From Acrasis kona (Eukaryota; Heterolobosea; Eutetramitea; Acrasida; Acrasidae): DNA of 20,562 nt. The stretch is from positions 1-20,562 of the forward strand of contig JAOPGA020000853.1 in assembly GCA_026419775.2 (NCBI GenBank), read 5' to 3'. Shown here in pieces: positions 2,578 through 20,562 of this stretch (position 1 is the first letter of the stretch; each line of letters begins with the position of its first letter). A program made the position numbers and the translations under genes. The notes under the pieces are model-generated. The model searched no databases and had not been told where the DNA came from. It saw only the letters and a program-made list of their open reading frames with translations.

Positions 2578-2901
2578 GTTTGTTATGTTTTTTATTATAA
2601 GTAACGGCTGATTTTATATTAACAAGTGATGTATTGATCTGGAGAATATGATTTATTTTTAATTATAATCTGGTTTTGATTTGATTAGTCAGTAATTTTG
2701 ATTTTGTAAGTGAGTTATCGTTAAATAATTATTAATTATCTAAAGTTTTAAGGGATATTAATTGAATATTTGAGAAGCTTTCTCTGAGTTGCAAATAACT
2801 GTGTAACAGAAATTTTGTCCCAATTTGTTATTTTATCCTTTCCCGCTGTTATTAATAAATTGTTCTTTTATTTGAACTTCAATTTTAAAAAATCAAACAA
2901 A
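2578..2901. promoter_or_regulatory. AT-rich divergent intergenic spacer
   Basis: This 324-bp spacer separates the start codon of the pogo-type transposase (minus strand, 2577) from the start codon of the zinc-ribbon gene (plus strand, 2902). It is strongly AT-rich with no ORF. By position it should contain both promoters. I cannot point to a convincing TATA box or other core element, and no transposon terminus is evident. Confidence 0.35.
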
Positions 2902-2943
2902 ATGACAAACGACGCACTATTATACCACCCATACAAACAATAC
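2902..2943 (+). CDS. 5' piece of zinc-ribbon gene split by the gypsy element
   Basis: ATG at 2902 opens 14 codons (MTNDALLYHPYKQY) that run directly into the LTR at 2944. The last five bases (AATAC, 2939-2943) are the retrotransposon target duplication. With the element and one duplicate removed, the frame continues without a break at 8418 into the CxxC/CxxC segment. I therefore take this as the true N-terminus of that protein. The product is unidentified. Confidence 0.7.
2939..2943. repeat. Target-site duplication AATAC, left copy
   Basis: AATAC directly precedes the TG of the left LTR and matches 8413-8417 directly after the CA of the right LTR. Five base pairs is a typical duplication length for Ty3/gypsy integrases. 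An intact pair shows the two LTRs belong to one insertion. Confidence 0.92.
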
Positions 2944-3112
2944 TGTAGAGGATATAAGAATAAGTAAGTACGCTATGTTACTGCGAACTGTGTGTTATGG
3001 TTTTATTTCACAATTATTTACATAAAGTGTTCACACGAGTAAGTCATCTCCGATTACAATGAATCTCCAATGACGACTCTTCACTAGTTACAATGTATAT
3101 TTGGTCACAACA
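2944..3112 (-). repeat. 3' LTR of the gypsy element (169 bp)
   Basis: It matches 8244-8412 over its whole length with four differences (2961, 2972, 2975, 2985 against 8261, 8272, 8275, 8285), all transitions. It has TG...CA ends. On the minus (sense) strand an AATAAA poly(A) hexamer lies at 3007-3002, consistent with the R/U5 area. At 169 bp this is short for a gypsy LTR. Confidence 0.95.
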
Positions 3113-3158
3113 TTCCAGGCGGCCTGCACTATCAAGGCTGGAAGATTTGATAGGACTC

Positions 3159-4531
3159 CTAATGCTTTCTACGTCTTTTTCTGACTAGGGTGCTACTCTT
3201 CTCGGTGGGCTTGTTAGGAGCTTCCACTACAGTCTTCTTGATGGCTTTTGACTTTCGCCCATTTCTTGGGGAGTTGTGGATGATATGATCATCTGGAAAT
3301 TCCTCTTCATTTCCAGAGACATAACTTTCTTCATTGAGGTCGTCTACTCCTACTTCAGTATCTGAATCTGAATTGTCGCTGCTTTTGTCTGCTATTTCAT
3401 CTGTGGGATGTAATTTGGATCTTACGTGTTGTCCAAAGAGCTCTGTATTGTTGGAGAGGTCAGACATCTTTCCATCAGTATGAATAGTCTTGAGGAAGTT
3501 TGCAGGAGCATGGAATTCTTCGACTTGACTCTCGATGAGGTATATGCCATCTGTATCCACGGCTTTGACTCTAAAGGGGCCTACGAACTTGTCTTTAATT
3601 CCTGGGATCTTAACCTCTTTCGGTATACGCCACATTACAAGTTCTCTTACTTTAAAGATGCCTATTTTGTGTCGATATGTTTTACATGCTTTATCAAATG
3701 CTTTGAGTTTGATCTTGTGAGCATGTTGGACTATTGCACATTTGAACGTTGTCCAAAAATTGACCATATGAGACACATCCTTCGGGGAGCGGGAATCATC
3801 TTCTAAGAAGATGAAGTCGTCACTGTCGGGGACTCTGAAGCTGAAAGGCTGTCGTCCTAGCATTAAGCTGAAAGGAGAGGCCTTGAGCGTTTTGTGGATT
3901 CTGGCGTTCATGACTAGTTGTGCTGCTGGGCAAACTGCATGCCATGCATTGGGGTGTTCTAGATTATTGGTCATATCTAACACAAGTTTATGAACCGTGT
4001 CAGCAGCCGTTCTATTCTGCCTTTTGACTCTACCGTTCGCTGAATGATGGTACGCAGGTGTGAGTTTATGATCTACGTTACTCAGTGAGCATATTTCCGC
4101 GATCAAAGAATTGGTGAATCAGAACGAAGGGTAGAGGGAAAACCAAAGTTGCTGAAGATATCAATAAGATGCTTAGCGACCTCTGGAGCAGATTTGTTAA
4201 GACATGGTTTGAGCCAGACAAACTTGGTGAAGTCATCGACCACGACCAGAATGTATTGGTGACCCATAGAACTTTTTTGTTCCATATGTAGCATGTCGCA
4301 TTGTATGTATTGACCAGGTAGCCGAGTTACTGGAATACGCAAGGGACTGTATGTGAGGCGATAATTGTTGACGCGTCTATATATGTCGCAAGATTTACAG
4401 AAGTCTAGACACTTCTTTTTTAAATTCTTAATGTCATGTATCTCCAGTGTATTAACAATGTGATCGAACATGATATTTGCGCCAAAGTGCCCCATAGAGT
4501 GTGCAGCTTCTAAAATAGCTTTTTCTTTGGA
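3159..4531 (-). pseudogene. Gypsy integrase, degenerate 3' end of pol
   Basis: It reads on in the pol frame after the TAG at 4532-4534. The zinc-binding domain shows H-x3-H (HSMGH) and CKSC. The core has the first Asp in QCDML and the second in LRSD. Straight after LRSD, about 13 bp equivalent to the usual N-G-x-x motif are missing, which shifts the frame; it ends with a stop at about 4103. The downstream frame (from about 4106 to 3159) carries the rest. There, the catalytic Glu expected before RxNRT is Lys (NGRVKRQNRT; AAA at 4023-4025). A GPY/F-like module (FVGPFRV) and a Ser/Asp-rich, basic-ended tail follow. Three independent lesions make the enzyme inactive. No chromodomain is seen. Confidence 0.85.
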
Positions 4532-7459
4532 CTAACTGTCTTGAACTGCGTCAGGTGACTGATCTGAGTATGCTGTGCGAACAGCAAAGATCCTCGAGGT
4601 GTCAGTCATTGCTGTACTTGCTTTGGCAAGCATTGAATCTGGGATCTCGAATTCTTTGATCCACGTTGCCGAGAAAACAGCGTTAACCCGTGAAATGTAT
4701 TGAACTCTGGATAGAAGATCTGGCAGTGTGCTAANAGTGCCTTTAATATGATGCACCTTGAAGGAGTATTCTGATAATTTGGCAATCCATCCCATAATAG
4801 TTCTGTCACGAGCGGCAACTTTGTTGTGTGCTTTCATAGCCAAAGTGATAGCTTCGTTATCAATGAACAAGTCATATGTCCTACCCAATAGGTGATATCT
4901 GAAATATTTGATGTGGAACACGGCAGAGAGAAGTTCTTTTTTTGGAATAGTGTATCTTGTTTCAGCATCACGAAATACACGAGAATGAAAGCCAATGTAT
5001 CNTTTTTCACCATTAATGGTTTGAAAGAGGGCACTACCAATGGCAGTGTCAGAAGCGTCTGTGGCTAATTCTAATGGAATGCCAGGGGAGGGGAAGTGAA
5101 GAAAAGGAACATTAGTGACTAATGCATCGAAGATGTTTTTGTAGCACTGTTCCAGCTCTTGTGACCATTTGAATGTTTTCTCTTTAATCCGAAGTAGGGG
5201 ATAAAGTAATTCCGAGACATTGGGAATGAATCTGCGGAAGAAATTAATAATGCCCAGGTAACTTTGAAGCTTCTTCCGTGTTGTAGGTCTGTCCCAATCC
5301 AACATGTTAGCCAATTTGTTTAAATTAGGGCGAATACCACCTGTTTCTAACCAGTAGCCTACCATGGGAACTTTGGTGACAAAGAAATGGCATTTGTCAG
5401 GATTGATAGTAAGATTAACTGAGGTCAGAGCATCGAGAACTTTTTTCACGTGCTGAACATGTTCTTCTTCACTTCCACTGAAAATTATGATATCATCAAT
5501 GTGATTGTATGTATAATCGCTGCATTTGTGCTCTTGTAGCAGAGACTTGATCAAGCGTTGAAACGATGATGGAATATGCTTCAAACCAAGAGGAGCAGTA
5601 AGGAATTGATATCGTTTACGACCCCACGTAAAGGCAGTAATATGTCTGTCCTTTTTACGAAGTAAGATCTGAAGGTAGGCAGAGCGGAGATCTATTTTTG
5701 AATAGATGACGGGTCTTGCCGATGAGATTAATTTGAATGCATCATCAATGGAGGGGACATCATTAGTGTCGTCCATGATGAGCCTGTTAATGTGTACAAA
5801 GTCGTGGACGATCCGTTCCTTGCCAGTGAATATGTTAAGTGCCCGGGTGTTAAAACGACCTCGTTTGATTTCTCCATCATTCTCAGGGATTTTGTGGTCC
5901 AATAATTCTTCGACAATGTTTTTTGCAAGCCAGTCTTTAACATCAGCGTCATATTTCTGCTGAATTGTTTCTGGGAGCAGGTATTGTGCCTGCCAACTGT
6001 CAAGTACACGAGACTTAGGATCCTCGAAAATAATGGGTATATCCCCTATTGAACTGTGAACGGATGCAGTGGCTAGGTTTTTCTTTATCTCGTCATCTAC
6101 AAGTGCAACCAACTTCTCATGATTGGAGTGGTTAACAATGCCCTTGGATTCGAGAAGCCGTTCTGATTCGAGTATCTGTTCAATATCAGCCACACAGTTA
6201 TCTCGCAGAATTCTGGCAAAATCATCGGCAGTGGAGAGCGGTAACGCAATACCATAGCGGATGTAGAAGTCACGTCCTAGAAGTAATAGATCTTCATTGG
6301 ATTCGATGACAACGAATACATGGTGGCCGACCATGTTGAGACAAGTAACCTTTAGAAGAACTAAATTGCGTTCAGCTGGACTACCATCTGCGAATGCAGT
6401 AAGAGTTGTATAATCACTAATAGTGTAAGAATCAACAGGTAGTTTATTTAAAGTGGTGGAACTGATCATGGAGTGCGTGGCACCGCTGTCAAGTTCACCC
6501 TCCAAGTGAACGGTATTGATCTCAACTCCGACAACGCTTGGTGTTGTGGGTGTGTCGAGAACCGCGTTCTTCGCTGCAGGAACTGGTGAGGCGTTGGTTC
6601 GCATCATTTTGATGCTGTTGAAGGTCTCACGCGTTGATGCTGGCGTGGAGACATAATGGATCCGACTAGTGGCGCGTTTGTGACTCTTCCTATCAAAAGG
6701 TTTGCCTCTGTCGCTAGTCTTGGAGTCCTTTCTTCCGTTCTTGTCCTTGTCGTCATCGTCTTTCTTCCTGTCCTTAAAGTAGCAGTCTTCGGATTTATGA
6801 TTGGTTTTGCCACAGTGGATGCAGGGGACTTTGGGCTTTTTTCTAGGATTGCCGCCGTCATCGTCCTTGTTATGTCTTCTTCTGTTGCTGCCGTTGTCAC
6901 GAGTGTCCGAAGATATGTAGCACTCGCGGAGAGGGTCTTTGGAGTGTTCAGAAATGATGGTCATCACCTTATCTAGAGACATATTGCCCGCTTTCAAAGA
7001 GGGTGCAATCAGAGAGAACTTAGCTGGAGTGATGTTTTCAGCAAAGATTTTGACCATACAGTGCTCTTCTATGCCAAGGGAGCGACCAAGGGATTTGAAT
7101 TTGTTGTTAAATTTGGTGATGGAGACACCGACATTGGGCTTGAAAGCAGCCAGTTTCTGTTCACCCAGAACGATGCTGGCACCCGGTTCTAGTAGGTGAT
7201 AAACACGTGACCGTATGGTGTCCAGACTCCTGTTCGCGAGTTCATCTCTGTGTTTGTGTAGAAGCTCGATTCTGGTGATGTCTGTGTCTTTCATGCTCTT
7301 GATTAAAATTCTGAACACGAAATTGTTAGGGATGTCGTTCTTTAAAATGTGACCCTCCAGTTTAGACAAATTCTGGTGAGTGCCGATGTTGTCCATCCAT
7401 CTGAATGCCCAATCTTTTGACATGCTGTGTCGTGGTGATTCATGGAACGTGGTGTCCAT
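4532..7459 (-). CDS. pol: Gypsy Gag capsid-NC-protease-RT-RNase H polyprotein
   Basis: 975-codon ORF. Residues about 15-180 are capsid-like Gag. A CCHC zinc knuckle (C-x2-C-x4-H-x4-C, CIHCGKTNHKSEDC) is at 213-226, followed by a Lys/Asp-rich linker. A retropepsin-type protease has LDSGAT at 323-328 and LLGRDF at 393-398. RT covers about 500-760 with KIDL (D590), an APLGL/FQ motif, and HIDD at 653-656 in place of the usual Y-x-DD context. RNase H has D801, E842, D867 and a later D914 near LPDLLSR. The frame ends at TAG 4532-4534, but the integrase zinc domain follows in the same frame, so this is a nonsense mutation or a readthrough codon. The pol frame is open from 7516, overlapping the gag N-terminal ORF in the -1 relation. 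Capsid and pol in one frame is common in gypsy elements. Confidence 0.93.
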   Translation of the reverse strand: MDTTFHESPRHSMSKDWAFRWMDNIGTHQNLSKLEGHILKNDIPNNFVFRILIKSMKDTDITRIELLHKHRDELANRSLDTIRSRVYHLLEPGASIVLGEQKLAAFKPNVGVSITKFNNKFKSLGRSLGIEEHCMVKIFAENITPAKFSLIAPSLKAGNMSLDKVMTIISEHSKDPLRECYISSDTRDNGSNRRRHNKDDDGGNPRKKPKVPCIHCGKTNHKSEDCYFKDRKKDDDDKDKNGRKDSKTSDRGKPFDRKSHKRATSRIHYVSTPASTRETFNSIKMMRTNASPVPAAKNAVLDTPTTPSVVGVEINTVHLEGELDSGATHSMISSTTLNKLPVDSYTISDYTTLTAFADGSPAERNLVLLKVTCLNMVGHHVFVVIESNEDLLLLGRDFYIRYGIALPLSTADDFARILRDNCVADIEQILESERLLESKGIVNHSNHEKLVALVDDEIKKNLATASVHSSIGDIPIIFEDPKSRVLDSWQAQYLLPETIQQKYDADVKDWLAKNIVEELLDHKIPENDGEIKRGRFNTRALNIFTGKERIVHDFVHINRLIMDDTNDVPSIDDAFKLISSARPVIYSKIDLRSAYLQILLRKKDRHITAFTWGRKRYQFLTAPLGLKHIPSSFQRLIKSLLQEHKCSDYTYNHIDDIIIFSGSEEEHVQHVKKVLDALTSVNLTINPDKCHFFVTKVPMVGYWLETGGIRPNLNKLANMLDWDRPTTRKKLQSYLGIINFFRRFIPNVSELLYPLLRIKEKTFKWSQELEQCYKNIFDALVTNVPFLHFPSPGIPLELATDASDTAIGSALFQTINGEKXYIGFHSRVFRDAETRYTIPKKELLSAVFHIKYFRYHLLGRTYDLFIDNEAITLAMKAHNKVAARDRTIMGWIAKLSEYSFKVHHIKGTXSTLPDLLSRVQYISRVNAVFSATWIKEFEIPDSMLAKASTAMTDTSRIFAVRTAYSDQSPDAVQDS

Positions 7460-8220
7460 CGTAACATTTGCGTGGGTGGTGCCGTGGCCAGGGCAAGATG
7501 TGCATGTGCATGTGCGTCATGTGCTTGAGTATGGTGCTCCTCTGATGGTAATAAATTTATGGACGCATCCAGTGTGGTTGCCGAACCCATCTTTGGAGGG
7601 ATTGGAGATGATGTAGGTTCTTCGTTAGCATATCTGTCCGTCGTTTGCTGCTCGAAAACTAATGTAGCGAGTCTTTGAATACGAAATTGTGCGATGTGGC
7701 GGCCTACAGATGATAATGAGCCAAGGAAATCTGAGAGGACATTTTCCTTCATGCTGAGTACCTCTTCCGGTGTGACGTTCATGTCTTTGAGGTCAGACGG
7801 GAAGGCACCTAAAATTGGGTCCCATGCATGAATGGAATCCGGTGAAATGTGAAGTAACTGATCAAGCCAGTTCTCATATTTCTGAGATGGTGTGGTGTTT
7901 GCTGAAGAAGTGACGGCAATGTCAACAGGCACTTCGTTGGTGTTGATGTCGTGAAGAGGGGAAAATCCCTCTAGGATCTCCTCAACAGGACCGGGTGTTA
8001 CCAAATTCTCTTGGTTGGAACTTTCGATTTGGTCTTCGTCATTGGGGACAGGGGTTTGTGTTGGCGGCCTCGCTTGTCGTTCAAACTCTTTGCGGATGAT
8101 TTTCCTAACGTCCTTGAGAAGTTCCAACTGCTTCTGATTTTGTCTGAGCCTATATTTAGCCAGGGTGACATTCTTTATGTAACTGCCCCTGCCTATTTTT
8201 TGTTTCTCGTTACCGACCAT
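7342..8220 (-). CDS. gag: Gypsy Gag N-terminal ORF
   Basis: The ATG at 8220 lies only 24 bp from the 5' LTR, so the leader is extremely short. The first about 255 codons (basic N-terminus KNVTLAKYRLRQ, then an acidic Pro/Ser-rich middle) have no domain I recognise and fill the matrix-like position before capsid. The last about 35 codons after the Ala/His repeat look like out-of-frame reading of the capsid start. The capsid frame is open from 7516, giving a 172-nt overlap in the -1 relation. The overlap contains a GCACAT-type hexamer run, a likely place for slippage mutation. I see no classical slippery heptamer, so either a non-canonical frameshift or a broken gag is possible. Confidence 0.7.
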   Translation of the reverse strand: MVGNEKQKIGRGSYIKNVTLAKYRLRQNQKQLELLKDVRKIIRKEFERQARPPTQTPVPNDEDQIESSNQENLVTPGPVEEILEGFSPLHDINTNEVPVDIAVTSSANTTPSQKYENWLDQLLHISPDSIHAWDPILGAFPSDLKDMNVTPEEVLSMKENVLSDFLGSLSSVGRHIAQFRIQRLATLVFEQQTTDRYANEEPTSSPIPPKMGSATTLDASINLLPSEEHHTQAHDAHAHAHLALATAPPTQMLRWTPRSMNHHDTACQKIGHSDGWTTSALTRICLNWRVTF

Positions 8221-9179: not shown

Positions 9180-10189
9180 TTATCCAAGAAGTGACAGCTC
9201 TTTCTCTGTCATCTCTTGAACTCTTTTGTCTAAACTAACAAAGTGCCCAAGCTTCCTCTTCATATTATACAAGCCTCCACACACAAGCATACAACCAGCA
9301 AGAAGGGAGTGGCAGTGTCTAAATTTACCGGAAATGGATTTGCAATGCTTCATGAACCTATTGACATGCTCAATGCTCTTCTGCTCTGTGTAGCTCACTT
9401 TATAAAAGAATTTCCTCTCTTTGGTTTTTCTCTCATGTGTTTCTAATCCAGCAACTATGTAATCTACATTTTGATATCTAGGATCACTAAAGGCAAAGTT
9501 ATTTCTTACTATTTCCTCAAATGATTAGTTGTTCCTAGCACATGTACTATCAACATTGTGGCCCAGGTAATTGACAGACATTGCACTGATCATATTATCA
9601 AAATCCATAAAAACATGGCAAGATACAAAATGTCCCAATTTGTCATGATGATAATACAAATGTTGACTAGATACAGGTTTATCAACATAGTTCGGTGTGA
9701 CATCAATTATGTATTTGATGAGGGTGCACAAAAATGATGTTTTTTCTGATGAATATATATGCTTGATATAGGTTACAAAATATTCCACAAGGATAGGCAT
9801 GGTCTCCTCGATTACTATTGATATATAACCTTCGCCCACTTGGAATCTCTCAGAAAGTGATTTGTACATTTCGTAACACACAATAAATCTCATTGTTAAA
9901 AGTACTCTGTTCTCGAATGACATTCCTGTATATTTTTTCTAAGAGCCACTCTTGATTCAACACCCTCCAATATTATTTGAAACTCTTCCCTTGTTAGCTG
10001 TGTGAACAACCGAAAATAATCTCTACTAGTGCATTCGGTATAAAACTTATACACATCTTGCTGTTTAAAAATGTGCTTTTTCTTCTTTTTAATTATACCG
10101 CGACCCTTCCCTATATTTGTATATTTTGCTTTGTAGTGTAAAGATCTACCGTAATCGCCTGCTTTATATTTTAATAAGGCTATTCTCAT
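9180..10189 (-). pseudogene. PIF/Harbinger-like (DDE_4, HARBI1-type) transposase pseudogene
   Basis: About 336 codons. The N-terminal third (10189-9896) ends in the helical region preceding the fold (YFRLFTQLTREEFQ). After a frame change near 9910-9940 comes the HTH-like part (LSERFQVGEGYISIVIEE), then the core. The first Asp is in IIDVTPNYVDKP, followed by LYYHHDKLGHFVSCHVFMD. The second Asp is in GHNVDS, as in the G-S/N-x-x-D-S signature of DDE_4. A TAA at 9525-9527 interrupts the frame, but the same frame continues (FSDPRYQNVDYIVAGL) to the Glu region (SIEHVNRFMKHCKSI). So there is one frameshift and one nonsense codon, with otherwise good conservation. TIRs and a 3-bp TSD were not located. 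Confidence 0.75.
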
Positions 10190-11189
10190 GAAGTGTAAGT
10201 CTCTGTGCCTTTTTTTAGTTAATAATAGTGTTTTGATGTCATGTTCTACTATTCAGATCTTCAACTTTAAAATTTTGATCCTCTTTTCCTTGTTTCTACT
10301 TGTTGCAGGTATTGTCATGCTTGTGTTAAAATTGTAAAGTGGTTATATTTTTTTATGTGCTTGATTAGATCAATGTGACAACATTATATGTAATCTAGAT
10401 ATGTTACTTATCTTTAAGTGTGCACTGGAGTGCACTCTTCACATCCTTATATATATAATTGGTTTTTGTAACAAGACTGTATATAATCAACCAAATGGTG
10501 TGGTCCTGCGCATTGTGTAATAAAAGTCAGAGAACCAAAAAACCAAACCATAATAAAAGGTTTGCTCCATATCTCTTAATAGGCCACTCACTGTGCAAGC
10601 TTGGATATCAAAATTGTACCTGGTAGATACTTTAACACATACAGTAAAAACAATAAAGAAGAACTTTTTAAAAATTTGTCTTATTTTATAGCTATAAAGC
10701 ATTTCTCAGTGGGTAGGAATGAATGTTCAACGAAAACTTTGAATGACACTCAAAGTATCTATTCTCATTCTCTTGTCTTTTGTATATCCGCGGTGCTGTG
10801 TCTGACTAGACTATCTGCTGACCTTCTTGCTGATTTATAATTGTGATATTTTCCATGACATGTACCTTCTGTTACGCCCTATGAAACCGTTTACTTAAAT
10901 CTCATAGTAATTAAATATGTAGTTTGAGGAATTCATCATATTTGCAACCAATAGTGCATTTGATTGATGTGTAATTGTGGTTGTAAATTACATCTTCCGA
11001 CTTCTATGTGTTAAGTATGCTGCATGCAATGGCTCTAGTGTTATGTATTGTTTATCAGTATGGACGTATAGACCAATTAGACTATTCCGACACATTTGAT
11101 ACGAAACACTGATGTTATAGAATACAGTGAGTTGGTAAGCGCGCAATTTTACAAAACAACTCAGCACAGAAGACTAAACACAATATACA
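10190..11189. other. 1-kb intergenic stretch, no gene seen
   Basis: This is AT-rich and without a convincing ORF; frames of 70-80 codons at 10487-10702 (-) and 10601-10840 (+) lack motifs. It must hold the upstream region of the protease gene that starts at 11190, and probably the boundary between the Harbinger-like and MULE units. One perfect 7-bp inverted repeat with a 2-bp loop lies at 10423-10438. Confidence 0.4.
10423..10438. repeat. Short perfect inverted repeat
   Basis: GTGCACT-GG-AGTGCAC forms a 7-bp stem with a 2-bp loop. Each arm also contains the palindrome GTGCAC. It might be a binding site or a transposon end, but it is short enough to be chance. Confidence 0.4.
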
Positions 11190-13614
11190 ATGGCAATCAA
11201 AAAGACATCCACCATTCAAACAAAGAACTTTAGCTACAAAATGTTATCTCAAACAATAACAACTTTGTTAACAAATGTAAACAATAAATTGGGAGTAAGA
11301 GCAGTCGAGGACATTGTCAAGTTGCTTGTACAGTGCAACAAAAAGCGATTACACACAATAAGCAACGCAGTTCTTCAAGGAGCTTACAGTGTTAGCGGCG
11401 ATGATCCTGAAACATTAACAGTCCTTAAAAAGCTGGGTGATCAAGATATGGAGGTTGGATCTAACCTTGAAGATTTCATGGGTCACGTGTGTGATCTTGT
11501 ACATAACTCAAAATCGAAAAAGAGATCATCAAAAAAAAACAAGACAAAGAGGACGAAGAAGAGGAAGAGGAGGATAAAGAAGAGGAGGACAAGGACGAGT
11601 CGGAAGAAAAAAATCCCAAGGTTGACGTAGAGGCAGAAAACAAAAAGAATGCAATTAAGATATTGCAGACACGCATAACAGCACCATTTAACCAGGTTAG
11701 TGTTGATGCTTACAATGCTGGAGAATTTCTCTCCAAATTACAATCAGTAAGCAGTACAACATTATGTGAAGATGGTGGATGCGACAGTCTTGCGTTGGGA
11801 TATGTTCAATTGTGCTCTCAACATCAAATCGCTAGTAAAAGCACTCTTCAATCTGACATTATGATTGGTGCATACTACAATGCCATTAAAAATGTCGGCG
11901 AAAAAAAAGACTCGTTGAACCCAAATCCAACAGCTGACGACAAGATCAAGACTATGCTCTTGTTATTTTGTTCATGGAGGAGATGCTACCAAGACTACAT
12001 TAAAAACAACAATGTAGAAGTTAGCTCCAAAGTCAAAAAAGCATTGGATTTGGGTGATGAAGAATTGCTTACCCTTCAACTCCATGAAATCCAACACATG
12101 ATCGCAGGCTGCTCGAGCAGTACATTTTACAGGAAAATTCAATTATATGAGTTTGCAGTAAAATATCCATATGTGTTGAATCTTTCTTTGCCGACAAAAC
12201 ATTTGTTTAACCATATACCCATGTTGGTTAAAATCCTTGAGGAGGATTCAGAGGACGGAAGACTTTACAAAGCGATATGGTCAAATTACAATCAACCCAC
12301 TAGGAACACAACACCATCATCCGAGGATCAAAAATCTGATGAAGGTACGTTTTTATTGTGTCAGATTCATTTACATGTCAAGTTAAACTTTTTCAATTTG
12401 TGGATACTCAAAAATCTATTAAGCATCTTGAGTACAATTACCTTGAAGTTATCAAGATCTTAAAGGAACAAACCAAATCATTTGAAGCGTCAAATTCCTT
12501 ATTGAAAAGACATAAAGAGAAAAATGATATTCAGGACTTTGACACTGTGGATGATGATGATAAACTTGTTCATACTGACGAGATAGGGCCGCTTAAGCTA
12601 AAAATGGTGGAGATGTCTTCAGTTGGTGAGGATAAATGTATGGGGGATGGGATCTTTTCTGGAATAACCGAAATGTGGTTTCCATCATCGTGGCAGACCG
12701 CAACAAAAGTGAGTTACTTTTATTGACTTCTTTAATCTTCATAGACTCTTGTGTTTAATGTAAACAACTGCAACAAATTCATTAGAGAGAAAGTTACACC
12801 ACAATTTCCTAATGTTCAGCAGACACGTTTATTCGCACCAGAGTGTGACGAACCAAGAAAATTTGAACGAATCATGTTTTTTGTGATGACCCCAAACCAC
12901 TATTCATTGGTCTTAGCAGAGACCAACAGCAGCAAGAAGTGCATACACTTGTATGCAATAAATTCAATTGATGCATCCGCCTTGATGAATTTGCAGCGTG
13001 TTGCAAGCTATTGCAAGCAGAGATATGAATTGGAGACAAATGGAGAAGGTGATTTCAAAATTTGCTGCCATAAAGTCCAAATATCTCCTCAACCTGATGC
13101 TACATCGTGTGGACCAAGAACATTGATAAACGCTGCAATAATCAAGCATTTGATCAATCAACATGCGGTTGATTTTGAAGATTCGTCAGTATCAATCAAA
13201 TATCCAGACAACTGTGTCAATCTTGCAATTCGTGTCATCAATGAGGATTGTAATTTATACTTTGACATGCACAAGCAACCACCACAAACCCCTCAACCAC
13301 AAACCCCTCAACCACAAACCCCTCAACCGCAAACCCCTCAACCGCAAACCCCAATCAAATTGAGAAAAGCGAAAACACAGTCCACACCAAATCCACCCAC
13401 TTCCGAAAAAAAAACATACGCCAATATTCATAGTGGAATGAAGCCCCCGCCTACTTTTCCTAGAAAGGCTGGTTCAAAACATAAACAAAATGATGATACT
13501 AGCCTCATTGAGAAGAATTTAAAAAAGCGCAAATCATCCGCAATAGAGTTTGAACCAGGTGACGATGACGGCAATGAGGATAAGCACAGAGAAAATAAAA
13601 AACAAAAGAACTGA
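11190..13614 (+). CDS. Four-exon gene with C48/Ulp1-type cysteine protease domain
   Basis: Proposed exons: 11190-11481, 11523-12344, 12383-12708, 12745-13614, about 769 residues. The first junction is the least certain. Parts in order: N-terminal helical region; acidic Glu/Asp run after exon 1 (KQDKEDEEEEEEDK); a Cys-containing helical domain of unknown family (about 150-370); then a Ulp1-like protease fold (about 450-630). In the latter, GDGIFSGITEMW resembles the Ulp1 opening segment, NHYSLVLAE supplies His (about 532), YAINS sits where Asp is expected (Asn, about 553), and QPDATSCGP gives Gln (about 596) and Cys (about 602). The tail has PQTPQ repeats and basic clusters. C48 enzymes cleave SUMO or other ubiquitin-like conjugates and are known cargo of some MULE transposons. 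The gene is tail-to-tail with a MULE transposase 17 bp away, so I infer an accessory protein of that element. Confidence 0.72.
11482..11522 (+). other. Tentative 41-bp intron (protease gene, intron 1)
   Basis: The frame changes between the ORF from 11190 and the acidic frame read from about 11530. Removing GT...AG at 11482-11522 joins them in phase. The donor (GTCACG) is weak. A 26-bp alternative, or an indel in the nine-A run at 11531-11539, would also restore the frame. Confidence 0.35.
12345..12382 (+). other. 38-bp intron (protease gene, intron 2)
   Basis: The donor GTACGT follows ...GATGAAG and the acceptor is ...GTCAAG. Removal joins codon phase 1 exactly and bridges two frames that each continue protein-like sequence (DQKSDE to VKLFQFVDTQK). 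A closer AG would leave only 20 bp and is less likely. Confidence 0.7.
12709..12744 (+). other. 36-bp intron (protease gene, intron 3)
   Basis: Donor GTGAGT, acceptor TTCATAG, phase 0. It contains in-frame TGA, TAA and TAG stops. Its removal keeps the same frame and joins the two halves of the protease fold (SSWQTATK to TLVFNVNN). Confidence 0.82.
13282..13352 (+). repeat. 15-bp coding minisatellite (PQTPQ repeats)
   Basis: Nearly five tandem copies of a 15-bp unit (CCRCAAACCCCTCAA, R = A or G) encode repeated Pro-Gln-Thr-Pro-Gln in the linker after the protease domain. The period keeps the frame, so copy number can vary without breaking the protein. The first three copies carry CCA and the later ones CCG, showing recent local duplication. 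Confidence 0.9.
13594..13599 (+). promoter_or_regulatory. Poly(A) hexamer inside the last codons of the protease gene
   Basis: AATAAA lies 13 bp before the TGA stop. Cleavage 10-30 bases downstream would fall at or just after the stop, giving a near-zero 3' UTR. It is the only plausible signal before the convergent transposase gene begins. Confidence 0.45.
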
Positions 13615-13630
13615 TTTGAGAACTGTAATC

Positions 13631-13636
13631 TTTATT
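13631..13636 (-). promoter_or_regulatory. Poly(A) hexamer overlapping the MULE stop codon
   Basis: On the minus strand the last codons read CAA-TAA-AGA, so AATAAA contains the TAA stop. Cleavage would fall inside the end of the opposing protease gene, so the two transcripts should overlap tail to tail. Confidence 0.55.
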
Positions 13637-15798
13637 GTATAGTTTCATCCCCACTATCACTGCTTCCACAACTGTTACTGTTATCGGTATCATGACTGCA
13701 ACTAGAACTCTCGCTATCAGACTCAAATGTGATACCGCTAATTGGATGCCTTGAGTTGACATAATCAACCATAGACTTTTTCATGTCCGTAATGTTTAAT
13801 CGTGGGCCGAATTTGTGACGACCATATTTACTTTCATTTTTCTTTCGTCCGGTGGCTGACCTTGACTTTCTGTTCAGTACATCCCAAATCTGATCACTAG
13901 TCGGTTGAATTGATTTATATTTTCGAAGGTATCCATAATGCTTGGTGTGGTCAACAACGGCTACCACATGGACACATAACTTGAATGCCTTGAAATGGTC
14001 ACAATTACAAATGAGGTCCGAATGGTCTCTTGTGGTGTAACGAACTATTTTAGGCCTTGTACCCTCTTCTTGATGGATTACCTTATAGTAGGGCCCATTC
14101 TTGCTATGCTGAATATGTCCACGATCCACAATGTTGAGTGCACATCTTTCAAGCATCTCTGCTTCTAAATNTGTTATTTCGCAGGTATCGGCAAGTGGAA
14201 ATCCCAATTCTCTTGTTGAATATAAAGTATTCTCCACGTTTTGAATTAGTATCAGACGAGTCCGATTTGGAAGGTTATCCATATTTAAAAGTTTTTGTTC
14301 GGTTCTTTTTGGTATTGCTTTCTTGAGATTCCTGTCGTCAATGTGTGAATCATAAAATAAAGAAGATTGTAACGACAAGCATTCTACAAAGCAGGTAACT
14401 ACTTCATGCAGACGTTGAATGTTAAATAAATCCCTCCCAAATATCTTTTCAAGAGGCTCGACAAGGCTAGTCCTTGCTCTCATGTCATTTATAGATGATT
14501 CGTGTATGTCATCGTCTTTCCAATATGTGTTGATCAGAGAGTGGAGTTTCCGGCTCCTAAAATAATTTGTAAAGTCCTCTGACCCAAGAACGTCATTCCA
14601 ATATTGTTCAAAACAAGCAAGGTTTTGTTCAATCTCATCCCTATCCATATCGATTAAACCAGAAGACTCATCTGTACCTTCAATTGTGGAAACGATGTCA
14701 TCAACATTGTGCATGGGGTACAATTCTTCAATTTTCCTTTTTACACTCTCCACAAAGTTGTTAGCACACAAAACAATTGGTATTGATGGGAACACTCTTT
14801 TCCAGGCCAATATTGGTGCCTCTTCTCCATCACTCACCAAAGCATGTTTTTTTATACTAATTTTATAGTTCTCTTTTATGTACGAAATCGCCCTAATGTG
14901 AACTTGCTCTGAGTTTGACTGAAACTTAGAAGAATTGATCTTGTGGACTTACCTCATGAATGTAAACAAATCCAACTTGAATCTTGTTGTCTCTAGTAAA
15001 TGGATTTTTGAATGCAAGATACGTAATGTGGCCCAATTTGTGATCCGAGGTTCGAACGTACCACATTGGCGCAGAGTTGATCACCAATAAACAATCTAAT
15101 GTGAAAAATAGTATAAAGGTGCTTTTGATGAGGCTTGTAACCCGAACAACATCTGAGAAGAAGGCAGAAGTCCGACTGATTTGATTCAATTCACAATCTT
15201 TCAAGTTCTGTTCCATGCTTCTTTGATCTAATGCTACATCTGATGTAGTGGTGTAGGTGCCTTCAATAACATGGTCAGGTTTTGGTCTTCTCTGTGCAAT
15301 AGGGGGTGTGATGGTCTTGAGCAACAGTAACAACACGCTCCGTTTATATAATACAAGTCCACGATGCATGCCTGACATTCGATGAAGTAGAACATATTCA
15401 ATGCGATGAAATTCCTGTTGGTTTTTGTTTACAAATGATGTCTGTAATACCTGATCATAACTTATTGAAGAGAACTCCAACCAACTACCGAAGCTATCAC
15501 GCCTGCTCAAGAAATTAGTAGGGTTCTTTGTTGTGAATAAATAAAAGCCTATTCGACCATAGGGGATATATTGCATTGAATTATTGAGAACCAAAGATAC
15601 ATCCCAACAAGTTGTCAGAAATGTCAAAGCATCCTGAATGGAGATACCTGTGCATTTCTCATGAAGTGCGCAGTAATACTCTGAGTGTAGTGTTTTTGTT
15701 GTGTACTTCCACAGCGCAGTATCCAATATTTCAAAACGTCTGTTAATATCATCAACAACAGTGTAGTCAATAAAAGGCTCTTTTGTAATACAATCCAT
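13632..15798 (-). CDS. MULE (Mutator-like) transposase with SWIM zinc finger
   Basis: Two exons, 15798-14953 and 14918-13632, joined across a 34-bp intron in phase 0, give 710 residues. The start is the ATG at 15798. The N-terminal about 220 residues are of unknown fold. The MULE core follows: a first candidate Asp in FTLDC (about 235), FVYIHE at the exon end, and the second Asp in VSDGEEAPILAWKRVFP (about 312). That motif is very like the MULE (T/S)DGE-A signature. The usual CxxH after it reads LCANNF, so His is replaced. The SWIM finger CxCx8CxH is at about 586-599 (CNCDHFKAFKLCVH). The C-terminal about 100 residues end in a Ser/Asp/Cys-rich acidic tail. The frame has no internal stop and one ambiguous base (14171). 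Coding looks intact, so the enzyme may be active. It converges on the C48 protease gene and closely resembles the partial gene at 20275. Confidence 0.88.
14919..14952 (-). other. 34-bp intron in the MULE transposase
   Basis: The donor is a perfect GTAAGT and the acceptor TTTCAG. The intron contains an in-frame TAA. It is phase 0, and removal fuses ...GFVYIHE to SNSEQVHIRAISY... leading into the SDGEEA motif. At 34 bp it is near the lower limit for spliceosomal introns. Confidence 0.85.
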
Positions 15799-15891
15799 TT
15801 TTATTTAGCGGTAAACAATAGACAGCATTTTAATATTGAATGTTGGTTACAGCATTTTATCCCCGCGCATTTGAGTACAATTTGAATTAAC

Positions 15892-15985
15892 CTCATTCCG
15901 CTTTCGTCCAACTTCTCTTTAGCACATCCTAGGTTTTATCACCGGTTGGCTGATTTAAATATTTGAAGGCATCTATAATGCTTGG
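15892..15985 (-). pseudogene. Relic of a third MULE C-terminal region
   Basis: The plus-strand sequence from CTTTCGTCC (15901) to ATAATGCTTGG (15985) aligns by eye with 13842-13945 of the intact MULE gene. Both end with the same stretch encoding, on the minus strand, KHY...L..(Y/F)KS. Several indels and stops are present. It covers only the segment just after the SWIM finger. It may be a decayed third element or a fragment left by a rearrangement. Confidence 0.6.
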
Positions 15986-17008
15986 AACGATACCAGGTCA
16001 CTAGAAATGAAAGTGCGGAGCGTCACTAGAGAATGAGAGCACCACGGTATAACCCCTTAATCCAACATTATAGGTTGTAGTTTCAGGTTGGTTGCGAAGG
16101 AGCTTTAAAGTTGTCAAATGAGTATAGTGTCCAAAGAGCCGAAATTGAAAGAGTTTGTCTTTTTCAGGTCGTTAAGGCCTATGTCGTCGAATGCGACGAA
16201 AACTGTTCATGACGGTGTGATTGTTTCATTGGTGTGAAATTTGTCTTTGATATTGTTGTTGAGCCACAACGAGGCGCGACGTGGCGTTGCAAAGGAAAGC
16301 CGCTTCAAAGCAGCAGTGATTCCTCAATGATGATAAATTGTAAAACGTAGCCAACTGAAAAACACAACTTTCAGAAAGTTTCATAACTCATAGCATCGCT
16401 GTACCGAAACTGGGGTGTGGGCTTTGGGCTATATTCTTTCTAAAGACTTTTTATTCAACTTATGCTGTACCGAAACTGGGGTGTATTTGTTGGTATGAAT
16501 AGTCTTTCAAAAAAATGAACAAAGGCTTCTATGCGCGGTACGTTTCAACATTTGTTACGAGCACTAATTTGTTATTAGCGGCAACATAATGCTAAATTTA
16601 TAAAGTTGCTCCGCAATGTTATTTCCACGTTTGGCGAGCCGGTTCTCCTTTCTGCAGGTTCCGCTTTATCTGAACCATAGCATGCTAAGCAGGTACAGAA
16701 ATTTAAAATGAAAATGCTTTTCCGCCTTCATTTGCTGGTAAATTTACAAGGACGCTTGGACTAATTTTGGGTTGCGTCGTACGTAACCTCTGTGGTTAAG
16801 TATTTGCGACAGAATGAGACATAATACCTACTTTAAAAGCATTACTACAAATGACGATTGTGCTGGAGCGAATTAAACAACGCTGAATTGCAGAAGCATG
16901 ATAAAAGAATAACTCCACAACCAAGTTCATCTTGCGGTTGAGAGGCAACGCAATAAATGTTTTTATTCCCAGTTTTGTTTGTATTTTTTGTAATTGAAAA
17001 CATTGATC
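15986..17008. other. Spacer between MULE units, no intact gene
   Basis: No ORF with recognisable motifs. It holds a 21-bp exact direct repeat (16398-16418, 16464-16484), a 9-bp repeat GTCACTAGA (15997-16005, 16022-16030), and a minus-strand stretch (about 16330-16120) that is open but for one TGA and reads like degraded protein without a known family. It should contain the right end of the first MULE unit and the promoter of the dioxygenase gene. Confidence 0.4.
16398..16484. repeat. Pair of 21-bp direct repeats
   Basis: Two exact copies, each starting GCTGTACCGAAAC and ending TGGGGTGT, lie at 16398-16418 and 16464-16484, 66 bp apart start to start. Exact identity in otherwise diverged sequence suggests a recent duplication or a conserved binding site such as a subterminal transposase motif. 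Confidence 0.75.
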
Positions 17009-18418
17009 ATGGTGAACCCTAATGCTGGTGGGATGGGACCTATTGAAAATAGACAACAAATGCGGTTTCGACGTCAATTTGTAGAGAATCAAATGCGCGC
17101 ACAACAAAGCAGAAACGAAGCAAATAACGAAGCACGTAATGCACCAGTTCTGCGGAACAACGACAGTAAGTTTATAAACATTCAATGTTAGTTTTGACAC
17201 AAACGTAGCCAAAAAAATGAACAGAAGATCAGCTGCAAAAAAGAGGAAAAGAATAACACAAACATTTAATTCGCAAAGTGGAGTTATGAACCAAAATCAA
17301 TTTGTCACACAACGCGCGGTACTGTACTACATTTACTTTATTTAACTATCTGTAGCCCCAAGTTCATCCATCACACCACTTCACGGAATTGTTACAATAC
17401 TATGAGGGTTTGAGAAGTAAGGACCAGCTCAGTGATGATATACTGTCACACCATATCGAGGCTAGTAATAAAGAGGCTCAAACCCCACTAACGTCGCAGC
17501 AAAAAGACGTTATAAAAATATACACAGCAGGGAGAGGTTACACAAAGTACGATTCAAATCATGAACTCAACCCATTTCACGAACCGCGAAATACAAATCC
17601 TACGGCTGATTCATTCCCACGCTCCCAAGAACACCACGAAATGTTTAAAGGTTATAGAAGAATGCTTAAGCACGCTTCGTTTCGTGTGTTTAACAATTTC
17701 GACATTACGCAAAGTTCCAAATGTTCTCAGCATGCCTTGAGGAAAAGAATGTTGTTGTTTCAAGATGAAAAACCTGAGCATGAAAAGATATCATTTGAGG
17801 ATGCGATGATGAAGGAGCTTGAATTGATTGACGAACCTGATTTACATTTTGGATTGGACAAGAATTACAAATTAATTTACGTTGTGTTTCCAAATTTTAC
17901 TTCACAAGCAATTCAACAAAAGTGTACTCTCGCGATCCTTGAATTGTTGACCATGTTCCCAAACCAGAGACCAAAAAAATCAGACGACAGACATTGTGAA
18001 ATAGAGGATGTTGATGTTTATCACTTAATGGAGTGGTCTCCAAAAGGCCATTATCACACTCGTTGTATTAGTCAACAGTCGACAGCTAATGGAAGAGTTA
18101 CAATATTACCAAGTGTTACCAATGTTCGAAATGCTTTTTTTGAATATAGAAGAAATTTAAGTGCACTAATCCGAGCTGTTGATGAGAATGAATATGTCAA
18201 GGGTAGAAGTACAATAGAACAGAGTACTGATGAGTTCAAGGATTTTCTACAATCTTGTATTGAGGAGGTTTTTTTGGGGTCTGTGATCAATACAGGCAGA
18301 TGTTTGAACCATAGGGACTTTAAAGATGTAAAAGGGTCATTGTCAGCGTTGAGTGTTTATGGGACTTTCTCTGGTGCAGAGGTTTGTATTCCAGAAATAT
18401 GTGTTATGTTTCCACATA
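17009..18418 (+). CDS. 2OG-Fe(II) dioxygenase-like gene, 5' part, interrupted by Tc1
   Basis: Exons 17009-17165, 17209-17318 and 17356-18418; the last continues at 19976 after the Tc1-type insertion, giving 520 residues in all. The N-terminus is Asn/Gln/Arg-rich with a likely nuclear signal (RRSAAKKRKR, about 58-67). A middle region of unknown fold follows (about 90-380). Then comes the start of a 2-oxoglutarate/Fe(II) double-stranded beta-helix: the iron ligands H408-x-D410 in NHRDFKDVKGSLSAL, followed by VYGTFSGAEVCIPE, the usual strand-and-glycine pattern. The second half of the active site is on the far side of the transposon. Family members hydroxylate nucleic acids or proteins. The spacing and the F-x-G-A-E-x-x-I/L-P strand remind me of TET/JBP-type enzymes carried by some eukaryotic transposons, but the subfamily is inference. 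An alternative is a captured host oxygenase. Confidence 0.7.
17166..17208 (+). other. 43-bp intron (dioxygenase gene, intron 1)
   Basis: Donor GTAAGT, acceptor ACGTAG, phase 1. It bridges exon 1 (...LRNND) to TKKMNRRSAAKKRKR with an in-frame stop inside the intron. Confidence 0.75.
17319..17355 (+). other. 37-bp intron (dioxygenase gene, intron 2)
   Basis: Donor GTACTG, acceptor CTGTAG after a pyrimidine-containing stretch, phase 0. It joins ...NQFVTQRA to PQVHPSHHFTELLQYYEG. An in-frame TAA is removed. Confidence 0.75.
18417..18418. repeat. TA target duplication, left
   Basis: TA before the left inverted repeat, matched by TA at 19974-19975. Because the element itself begins and ends with TA, each junction reads TATA and the exact split is ambiguous by two bases. 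This assignment is the one that keeps the host reading frame. Confidence 0.75.
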
Positions 18419-18503
18419 TACCAACTTCTGTCTAACTTGGCCACCCCCCACTCTAGGTCAACTACTCGCCTTTTTGCTCCAAATTTGATACCATTAAATA
18501 GAG
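18419..18503. repeat. Left terminal inverted repeat (about 85 bp)
   Basis: It begins TACCAACTTC and aligns without gaps to the reverse complement of 19889-19973, with 12 mismatches by my count (about 86% identity). The most conserved blocks are GTCTAACTTGGCCACCCCC near the tip and CCAAATTTG/TACCATTA/ATAGAG at the inner end. Confidence 0.9.
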
Positions 18504-18650
18504 CATGAAGAATTATGTAATATAGCATATTATTTTTATTTATATGCATTGCTCATTTTTGTACAATTAAGTTATTTTAAGAAAATTACAAAAATATTTG
18601 AGCCAATTTTGAATAGATAAAAATAGAACAAAATTCAAGAAAAACTGAAT

Positions 18651-19781
18651 ATGCCACACAGTAGCAAACCACATAGTAATGATATACGTCAAGTTGTGGT
18701 GAATATGAAAGAGAGGGGAATGACTAGTAGACAAATTGCTGACTTAACTCAAGTTTCACCTCATACTCAGAGGAGATACATAGAACGAAAAAAAAACAAC
18801 AATTTAAATATCTCCACACCAAATAGAAAAGGACCTAATAATCCAAATGCCAAAATAACTGACCAGTTTTTGATAGAATTCCGTCATTTGATTGCTGAAA
18901 AAGCTGATTTGTTAGATTCTGAACTATCACGTGAAATAGAGAACAAGGTTGGAATTCGACTATCAGACAATCAAATATGCTCATTACGCAAAGAAATAGG
19001 CATCACTCGTAAACTGAAGTCAATTTACTATCCAGAACGCTTCTTGCCTGCAAATATTCAATTAGCGAAAGAATTTTGCATCAATCATCAACATATCAAC
19101 TCAAAAATTGATCTAGAGGCTTGTGCTAGTACAGATGAGTGTGGCTTTCAAAGTGATATTCAACGAAGACATGCTAAAAGTCAAATAAAAGTGACTCGTA
19201 ATTTTGATAACCACATTAGGCGTGTCAGTGGAGGAAGTTACACTCGCAGTACCTCAAAAGTTTATGGAAAGAAGCAGAAACATGCCGCATTCAAACTAAA
19301 CTTGATTGCAACCATATGCTTAGATCCTAACAATCCTGTTCCTGGTTTTACATTCTCTGATGAGTATGTTAATGGAATCATCTATTCCAAATATATCAGT
19401 AATATGAAGTATCCTGAGGGTATAACACATGATTTGGTTGATAAAGCTTCCTTTCATATTGCAAATTGAGCTAATACTAGGCGTGGTGGTGTAGGTGTTT
19501 TGGAGTGTTATGAAAACCAGGAGGTAACACCAGATTTTGTTCTACGTGGATACCCAGAATACAACCCAGTAAAACAACTATTTGGTTGGCTTAAAGCTTA
19601 TATGAAAAAAAAAGTGAATGAGTATCATGATGGATCAGGGTGGTCAAGAGAGCAAATGAGAGAAGTGCTCTTAGAGGCAAAATCAAAAGTAACATATGAA
19701 CTTGTCAAAGGGTGGTATAGGAACTCATTTGAACATATGCACCCGGGCAAAATGATACCTTTATATTTGAGAGCACAGTAG
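18651..19781 (+). pseudogene. Tc1/IS630-type transposase with one TGA and Glu-to-Lys
   Basis: 377 codons from the ATG at 18651 to TAG at 19779-19781. An N-terminal HTH (MTSRQIADLTQVSPHTQRRYI, about 24-44) is followed by a second helical DNA-binding part. The core has the first Asp in STDECGF (162) and the second in VDKASFH (264). A TGA at 19467-19469 (position 273) interrupts the frame, which then continues unchanged. The third acidic residue, expected as Glu in the NPxE motif, is Lys (EYNPVKQLFGWLK, position 308; AAA at 19572-19574). The second-to-third spacing is 43 residues, longer than the common DD34E. So this copy is inactive in cis, though otherwise well preserved. Confidence 0.85.
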
Positions 19782-19888
19782 CCAAATAGCTCGTTTTTTT
19801 TCAATATTTTAGTAAAACAACTTGAATTATACAAAATGCACATAACATTATAATACATTCTGACCATTTTTCAACTCAGTTTTTTGCA

Positions 19889-19973
19889 CTCTATCTAATG
19901 GTACCAAATTTGGAGACAAGAGATGTGTAGTTGACCCAGGGTAGGGGGTGGCCAAGTTAGACGGAAGTTGGTA
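19889..19973. repeat. Right terminal inverted repeat (about 85 bp)
   Basis: Reverse-complement partner of 18419-18503. It ends GAAGTTGGTA and is followed by the TA duplication at 19974-19975. Confidence 0.9.
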
Positions 19974-19975
19974 TA
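19974..19975. repeat. TA target duplication, right
   Basis: Pairs with 18417-18418. See the left copy for the two-base ambiguity. Confidence 0.75.
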
Positions 19976-20208
19976 AGCCAAGTTCAACAATTCTAATTAG
20001 TTCAGAGGCATTAGAGCATTTTATTGCACCTTATTCTGGTTATCGTATGGGGATGGTTCATTGTACCCATGATCTTTATCAAACTCCCGATGAGGATTTA
20101 TCTGTAGATAACGGAACGGTACGCTCTAAAAAAGACGATCATTTAAGAAAGATGAAGAGAAAGGTCCATGAAATGTATGAGAATACAAGTCACTACAGCA
20201 AACCATGA
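19976..20208 (+). CDS. 2OG-Fe(II) dioxygenase-like gene, 3' part
   Basis: This resumes the exon cut at 18418. The split codon A|AG gives Lys, followed by PSSTILISSEALEHF, so one frame spans the former insertion site. The distal iron ligand is His458 (CAT 20017-20019, ALEHFIAP) and the co-substrate-binding Arg is R467 (CGT 20044-20046, SGYRMGMVH), nine residues later as usual for the fold. A charged tail (KKDDHLRKMKRK) ends at TGA 20206-20208. The catalytic set H-x-D, H, R is therefore complete across the two parts. The gene converges on a MULE transposase whose stop is 67 bp away. Confidence 0.7.
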
Positions 20209-20265
20209 TCACTACCCTACGTCGGAAGAGATTCAATACAGAACGAAATGTATGTTAGAATTTAT

Positions 20266-20279
20266 AATAAATATTTATT
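20266..20279. promoter_or_regulatory. Palindromic bidirectional poly(A) signal
   Basis: AATAAATATTTATT is a perfect 14-bp palindrome that reads AATAAA on both strands. On the plus strand it lies 58 bp after the dioxygenase stop. On the minus strand it overlaps the TAA stop (20277-20275) of the MULE gene. One short element may thus end both convergent transcripts. Confidence 0.6.
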
Positions 20280-20562
20280 TTGTTTTATTCAATATACTCC
20301 ATATTTGACCACTTGTTGGGCGGATGGATTTATATCGTCGTAAGTATCCATAGTGATTGCTGTAGTCAATTACAGCAACAACATGAACACATAATTTGAA
20401 TGCATTAAAATGTTCACAATCACAAGTGAGATGTGAGTGGTCTTCTGCATAATACTTAACTGTAAAATGATTTTCATCAACCTCTTGATGTATCACTTTG
20501 TAATGTAGGCCTTCATGGCTTTTTTGTACATGTTTACGATCCACAATGTTGAGTGCAGATTT
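20275..20562 (-). CDS. Second MULE transposase, C-terminal 95 residues (partial)
   Basis: The gene enters from the window edge and ends at TAA 20277-20275. It holds the SWIM zinc finger CxCx8CxH (CDCEHFNAFKLCVH) and is closely similar to residues about 545-630 of the MULE at 13632-15798 (shared LNIVDR, YKVIHQE, FKLCVHVVAV, HYGYLR.YKSI.PTS.QIW). It stops soon after that block and lacks the roughly 85-residue Ser/Asp-rich tail of the first copy. The frame is open across all visible codons. It is tail-to-tail with the dioxygenase gene, the same layout as the first MULE with the protease gene. Confidence 0.85.
   Translation of the reverse strand, partial: KSALNIVDRKHVQKSHEGLHYKVIHQEVDENHFTVKYYAEDHSHLTCDCEHFNAFKLCVHVVAVIDYSNHYGYLRRYKSIRPTSGQIWSILNKTK

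Follow-up and report, generated by a model that had tools for sequence, protein, structure and literature searches.

The stretch of DNA analysed here (the window) is the whole of contig JAOPGA020000853.1 of Acrasis kona, designated C412, which is 20,562 nucleotides long and belongs to an assembly of 37.35 Mb in 1021 contigs; other contigs are designated in the same manner. Near its end lies a gene, TET-A, that we consider likely to encode a TET/JBP dioxygenase carried as a passenger inside a DNA transposon of the Mutator-like element (MULE) superfamily, where it would probably act against cytosine methylation. Because the TET gene holds a Tc1/mariner insertion, the window copy is inactive as it stands, and its two pieces, before and after the insert, were analysed separately throughout.

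Counting itself, the main TET frame matches 64 places in the genome and is therefore not a chance frame; it is 54% identical to a frame on C407. A reading of this DNA made from its letters alone, hereafter the sequence-only reading, had proposed a dioxygenase gene with an H-x-D motif, a distal His and an Arg, and had set a single-copy host gene without a MULE neighbour against its own proposal; the 64 matches do not fit such a gene, and the proposed residues hold. HRD is invariant in all eight aligned rows (the window, six genome relatives and P0001, a protein of 718 aa from an outside source and the single outside relative returned by a search of a large protein database), and four of four relatives carry the distal His and Arg at the positions where the second window piece has them. 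The iron residues (HxD and H) and the Arg that binds 2-oxoglutarate (2OG) are retained in the window copy; in the relative on C504, a His stands in place of the Arg. Four of five longer relatives, on C168 (E 8e-7), C407 (2e-5), C857 (6.8e-4) and C329 (8.6e-3), match Tet_JBP (PF12851), all below the curated cut-off. The MULE-linked TET genes on C186 and C135 lie under (E 1.3e-5) and over (E 2.1e-15) that cut-off, respectively, and genome-wide there are 56 Tet_JBP matches, 19 of them over it. When the C168 TET protein was compared with the PDB at E up to 1, each of the four matches was a TET enzyme (Naegleria Tet-like or CcTet; E 0.0087-0.047). It is these PDB matches and the Tet_JBP matches of the relatives that narrow a 2OG oxygenase to TET/JBP. 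The closest solved structures by sequence are NgTet1 of Naegleria and CcTet of Coprinopsis, with the likeness limited to the catalytic core, some 80-105 residues (E 8.5e-5 to 0.047). Combining the main-frame and Tet_JBP matches gives 93 merged TET/JBP loci in the 37-Mb genome, and the window gene is a predicted member of this very large expansion. A viral origin of TET was also considered and rejected, as alignment A1 found no relative in viral contigs.

The transposon that the sequence-only reading had postulated is found in the form of elements bounded by terminal inverted repeats (TIRs) that hold both MULE and TET, on C186, C555 and C168. Both TIRs were located in these three and in C248, C322, C743 and C23. 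In the first of two lineages, that of the window and C168, window positions 12138-15876, which contain a Ulp1-like gene and a second MULE gene (MULE-a), match C168 21130-17378 at 85% on the DNA level, and window positions 20199-20562, which contain MULE-b, the MULE gene facing TET-A, match C168 14756-14403 at 89%. On the side of MULE-b, the similarity among C168, C38 (its copy) and C248 ends at a shared breakpoint (within 5 bp), where each of them (C168 at 11677, C38 at 9344, C248 at 11820) starts with GGTAGATACTTTAACACATACA; the same 22 bases stand at window position 10622, facing inward from the Ulp1-like side. Such termini number 48 genome-wide at no more than 2 mismatches over 20 nt, and a reversed control pattern gave 0. 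C168 has both of them (11677 and 22813), enclosing an 11137-bp element of MULE-b, TET, MULE-a and the Ulp1-like gene. The window shows one terminus, the far end being lost with the contig end, and its copy belongs to a predicted TIR-bounded element with one end at 10622 and the other beyond the contig. The elements on C322, C743 and C23 share this TIR type and contain, between their MULE and Ulp1-like matches, oxygenase gene remnants that face the MULE; the C23 remnant shares 53% identity with the C135 TET over 57 residues and 36% with the C186 TET over 42, and the upstream piece on C322 showed no similarity to the C186 TET. A pair of facing termini, 299 bp apart (C677:17221-17519), is a probable miniature inverted-repeat transposable element of the window's element family.

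In the second lineage, the elements on C186 (21885-30723, 8839 bp) and C555 (2304-10503, 8200 bp) have TIRs of about 60 bp that start with G/C and then GGCACYGTTTAAA, and both hold a MULE gene on the plus strand and a TET gene and a Ulp1-like gene on the minus strand. C1013 and C463 are further partial copies, and the distance between the MULE and TET stops is 41 bp in C186 and 46 bp in C1013. MULEs duplicate a target site of about 9 bp on insertion. The C186 element lies between exact 9-bp direct repeats, GTTTATTTG, and C555 has no target site duplication (TSD); in the first lineage, the 9-mers flanking C248 are alike at 7 of 9 positions (a 7-bp core is identical), and C168, C322 and C743 have none. 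The TIR of the second lineage was rejected for the window, where 3 matches at 3 mismatches compare with 2.8 expected by chance. The common gene order across elements is MULE, TET (convergent) and Ulp1-like, and the simplest TET-bearing elements have TET and MULE convergent. The sequence-only reading had envisaged an element of two genes and suggested that the genome be searched for further copies of the pair and for termini common to them; the search recovered MULE/TET elements with both TIRs, and in the canonical element the pair is joined by a third, Ulp1-like gene.

Association of the two genes is also apparent from their distances across the genome, with expected counts that assume an even spread. 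A MULE match lies within 3 kb at 12 of the 93 TET loci (0.88 expected), and a reverse transcriptase, scored as a control at 148 merged places from 150 of 351 candidates, at 1 of 93 (2.76 expected). C322, C743 and C23 are absent from the adjacency lists and thus uncounted, and the TIR examination around the pair left aside C1011, C495, C515 and C432. The tail-to-tail pairing claimed for the window is present there and common elsewhere, but it is not fixed: five of the 12 pairs are convergent (C412, C1013, C186, C463, C515), six lie on the same strand (C1011, C135, C168, C38, C495, C801) and one is divergent (C432). A separate observation concerns a gene that we call U, of a family without a Pfam name, which lies 629-856 bp upstream of TET on the same strand at 8 of the 93 loci (for example, L013:154-834, L012:3204-3953 and L022:1-648). 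U and TET constitute a second recurrent TET-linked cassette, perhaps that of another transposon; in two of these cassettes (C504 and C857), a membrane-protein-like gene, recognized by eye, follows TET (L022:2865-3989 and L071:2-331).

The features of the window are collected in Table 1. The short basic N-terminal part of TET-A occupies one or two exons. A GT...AG gap lies ahead of exon 2, and another separates it from the main exon, which begins at 17356 (borders read by eye). The insert, of about 1.56 kb, is flanked by arms (18417-18503 and 19889-19975) of 87 nt at 86% identity; its frame has weak helix-turn-helix matches and 15 matches in the genome, itself included. The TET frame resumes at 19975-20205, its first base being the final base of the insert's right inverted arm. 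The stops of TET-A and MULE-b are convergent, as the sequence-only reading stated, and are separated by 66 bp rather than 67. On the question whether TET-A forms a separate nested element, window positions 15877-17793 gave no blastn match at E up to 1e-5 in the compared genome loci. Elsewhere in the window, positions 1106-7516 and 9180-10252 contain other mobile elements: a Tc5/pogo-like transposase, a polyprotein with a reverse transcriptase domain and, just outside the element terminus, a frame with a weak DDE_Tnp_4 match.

Table 1. Features of the element copy in the window.
Feature	Position	Strand	Remarks
TIR, Ulp1-side end of element	10622..10643	+	GGTAGATACTTTAACACATACA
Ulp1 (C48)-like cysteine protease gene, several frames	11178..13614	+	Frames 11178-11630, 11507-12463, 12343-12726, 12745-13614
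MULE-a, second SWIM-finger MULE gene	13632..15804	-	Exons 14926-15804 and 13632-14948
TET-A exon 1 (basic N-terminus, MVNPNAGG...)	17009..17166	+	3' border inferred from GT; C407 relative also begins MVNP
TET-A exon 2	17201..17318	+	Borders by eye from AG/GT signals
TET-A exon 3, part 1	17356..18415	+	HRD at 18310-18318
Tc1/mariner-like insert within TET gene	18416..19975	+	Inverted arms, own frame
TET-A exon 3, part 2	19975..20208	+	Distal His 20017-20019, Arg 20044-20046, stop 20206-20208
MULE-b 3' end, SWIM finger, truncated by contig end	20275..20562	-	DNA and protein matches

The gene opposite TET-A had been taken for a SWIM-finger MULE, and this identification stands. The frame at 20275-20562 reads TCDCEHFNAFKLCVH, with the CxC...CxH pattern and a stop at 20275-20277, and at 20281-20559 on the minus strand it resembles the window's other SWIM/MULE protein (62%, E 2.5e-34). 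The SWIM finger (CxCxnCxH) was recognized by eye in both MULE-a and MULE-b of the window; a Pfam scan of MULE-a returned no SWIM family. Window MULE-b matches the MULE-b DNA of C168, C38, C248 and C801 at 88-94%, and its catalytic region lies past the contig end. PF10551 (MULE transposase) exceeds the cut-off in C135 (29.7 bits). Of its 21 genome matches, 10 score above it, including two that do so only together with neighbours in frame; C1013 is under it (22.8 bits, E 1.3e-4), and window MULE-a reaches E 0.091. Window MULE-a is 34% identical over about 400 aa to the MULE of C186 (E 1.5e-58). KDZ membership was rejected, as the transposase frames of the window, C1013, C186 and C135 match MULE or nothing in Pfam and no KDZ family. 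At the site that we take to be that of the first catalytic Asp, this residue is present in MULE-b of C801 and in the MULE copies of C186, C424, C850, C23 and C135, and Arg replaces it in all four MULE-a copies that span the site (C412, C38, C168, C641). The ratio of nonsynonymous to synonymous substitution rates (dN/dS) of MULE-a relative to C412 is 0.12-0.17 (bootstrap upper bounds 0.19-0.39), and that of MULE-b is 0.06-0.12 (C168/C801); the C248 MULE-b fragments, of 16 and 30 codons, give uninformative values of 0 and 0.90. MULE-a seems to be maintained as a protein and is probably not the active transposase. The Ulp1-like frame at 12745-13614 has 34 genome matches, itself included, and shows NHY...QPDATSCG by eye, a motif compared with the His-Asp-Gln-Cys pattern of C48 proteases, in which the window copy has Asn for the Asp. 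The Ulp1-like proteins of the two MULE lineages align poorly, and the C186 copy has no PDB match. No Pfam C48 match was obtained for these proteins, so the Ulp1 name applies at the motif level only.

Purifying selection acts on a TET frame of the second lineage: between C1013 and C186, its dN/dS is 0.206 over 357 codons, where the MULE gives 0.113 over 368. In the other comparisons, dN/dS is 0.25, 0.26 and 0.35 for C168 against fragments on C801, C886 and C626, 0.13 for the near-identical copies C168 and C53, whose 6 changes are too few to be informative, and 0.13 for C857 and C329, which are U-linked and not MULE-linked. In the first lineage, the stretches between MULE-b and MULE-a of C412 and C168 do not align as DNA, and the TET that occupies this slot in C168 and in C38, its copy, is of another clade and lies in the opposite orientation to the window TET. 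A tree of 21 rows, which has long branches and unsure deep joins, places the window TET among C407, C641, C723 and C661 (support 89/89); the C168 TET joins C38 and C53 first and C347, C1003, C379 and C215 next (96/94). C248 shows this framework minus TET and MULE-a (positions 14880 and 19715 of C168 fall together at C248 9942), a state that either a loss there or a gain in C168 would produce. We tentatively propose, while rather doubting that it will hold in full, that this MULE lineage carries an exchangeable anti-silencing module: one TIR framework of MULE-b, slot, MULE-a and Ulp1-like gene would receive TETs from two clades in opposite orientations, as in the window and C168, and the Arg-altered MULE-a would be selectively kept as a SWIM-finger DNA-binding helper. 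If true, the element would swap its base-oxidising enzyme, perhaps tracking changes in host DNA modification.

In the mechanism that we envisage, a MULE transposase (MULE-b or its like) would move the whole cassette, and TET would oxidise methylated bases, most likely 5-methylcytosine (5mC), on or near the element. This oxidation would relieve the silencing of the element by host methylation, and the Ulp1-like protease may assist by stripping SUMO from silencing proteins. The element-borne TET may, as the sequence-only reading supposed, alter host silencing. The host has 10 matches to DNA_methylase (cytosine methyltransferase) domains, on six contigs and all over the cut-off. CpG depletion was rejected as a sign of methylation, being mild and not separable from that of host genes; depletion is strongest in the Tc1 insert (0.42).

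Several observations weigh against the reading of a TET passenger that acts on methylation. The window TET pieces alone give no Pfam match, and the profile search advised by the sequence-only reading gave Tet_JBP matches below the cut-off in four of the five longer relatives. P0001 has no Tet_JBP match, a PDB search with the profile of the eight-row alignment is empty at E up to 1, Tyr replaces the first His in a second TET of C641, which is decayed, and the remnants on C322, C743 and C23 match 2OG-FeII_Oxy_3 weakly (E 0.008-0.013) and not Tet_JBP. The Ulp1 label comes from motifs, TSDs are present in two of six elements examined, one of them imperfect, and the near-identical TET pairs C38/C53 and C168/C38 (dN/dS 1.02 and 0.38; 10 changes each) are uninformative on selection. 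In addition, no MULE was detected within 5 kb at 81 of the 93 TET loci, as is true of the window TET's own tree group (C407, C641, C723, C661); reverse transcriptases lie within 5 kb at 8 of 93 loci (4.24 expected); and Tc1 lies within 3 kb at 4 of 93 (0.21 expected), one being the window's own insert, an enrichment that indicates some general clustering of mobile elements. TET might on this evidence be an expanded family that stands on its own and spreads by some other means, such as the U cassette with its same-strand gene upstream at 8 of 93 loci, and that occurs in MULE-rich places by chance, with MULEs acquiring it passively. We judge this unlikely, since TIRs enclose both genes in C186, C555 and C168, a decayed oxygenase frame occupies the same slot in C322, C743 and C23, and the reverse transcriptase control is found within 3 kb at a single locus. 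Plant Pack-MULEs capture host gene fragments, and TET could similarly be neutral cargo, host fragments captured without function. The decayed frames on C322, C743 and C23, the alteration of the C555 TET frame near its end, the stops in 28 of the 64 genome matches of the main TET frame and the insertion that breaks the window gene would suit this account, but the HRD kept in eight of eight aligned rows and the dN/dS values of 0.21 (C1013/C186) and 0.13 (the non-MULE copies C857/C329) make it very unlikely in our view.

The substrate is a further point on which readings part. TET could be an element-borne base hydroxylase that acts on thymine (JBP-like), N6-methyladenine (6mA) or RNA and that serves in element regulation rather than demethylation, an alternative that strikes us as somewhat improbable. 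According to the available part of PMC12344493, NgTet acts also on thymine, and N. gruberi has 5mC on repeats with 5-hydroxymethylcytosine not detected, and substrates other than 5mC must therefore be reckoned with; CcTET acts on 6mA in the accessible text of PMC12730594. The CpG ratios, 0.60-0.85 in elements against 0.73-1.17 in six host stretches, count here as well as among the points adverse to a role in cytosine methylation. However, domains of the DNA methyltransferase type are present in the host, and the closest solved enzymes oxidise 5mC, as far as the excerpts of PMC12730594 and PMC12344493 go. We retain a TET/JBP passenger directed at cytosine methylation as the probable reading.

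TET-carrying transposons are already known, and KDZ elements were reportedly named as TET carriers in fungi by Iyer et al. in 2014. Our literature search, which was thin on subscription journals, found no paper on a MULE-borne TET. A fungal host is disfavoured by SAHH (gene on C329, 480-aa type), whose closest PDB entries are 5v96, of Naegleria fowleri, and then 6uk3 (835 and 800 bits), and which points to a probable amoeba-like protist. The transposons with a TET/JBP enzyme of their own hereby gain the MULE superfamily and a non-fungal host; that unrelated superfamilies have acquired TET speaks for a benefit of base oxidation to DNA transposons in general. In the present case, the element may be equipped to reverse its silencing by the host. 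A large and diverse TET set in one protist genome, in part element-tied and intact-looking, allows the relief of silencing in cis to be tested and is a source of new enzymes with which modified bases could be read.

Plant MULEs with ULP1 genes were reportedly described by van Leeuwen in 2007, and the Kaonashi elements are said to be plant MULEs of this kind; we know of no TET gene in any of them. Such ULP1-bearing MULEs also appear in the accessible part of PMC2528002, and like the present elements they combine a MULE transposase and a Ulp1-like protease gene in one element, in either orientation. The available text of PMC12730594 describes VANDAL MULEs with an anti-silencing protein and MuDR with SET genes, which are likewise Mutator-type elements with a gene that acts against or upon epigenetic silencing, but the protein is a different one and not a base-oxidising enzyme. 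The same text (Kojima 2025, PMC12730594), insofar as it was accessible, counts 11 lineages of TET-carrying DNA transposons in fungi, none of them MULE/MuDR, and its introduction mentions MuDR twice, on VANDAL and SET genes. As characterized in those sections, the fungal transposons and the present elements are alike in having TIRs, a TET/JBP gene beside the transposase and a conserved HxD...H, and in both, TET genes pass between transposon lineages. The present elements differ from them in that the transposase is that of a MULE and the host, Acrasis kona of the Heterolobosea, is not a fungus.

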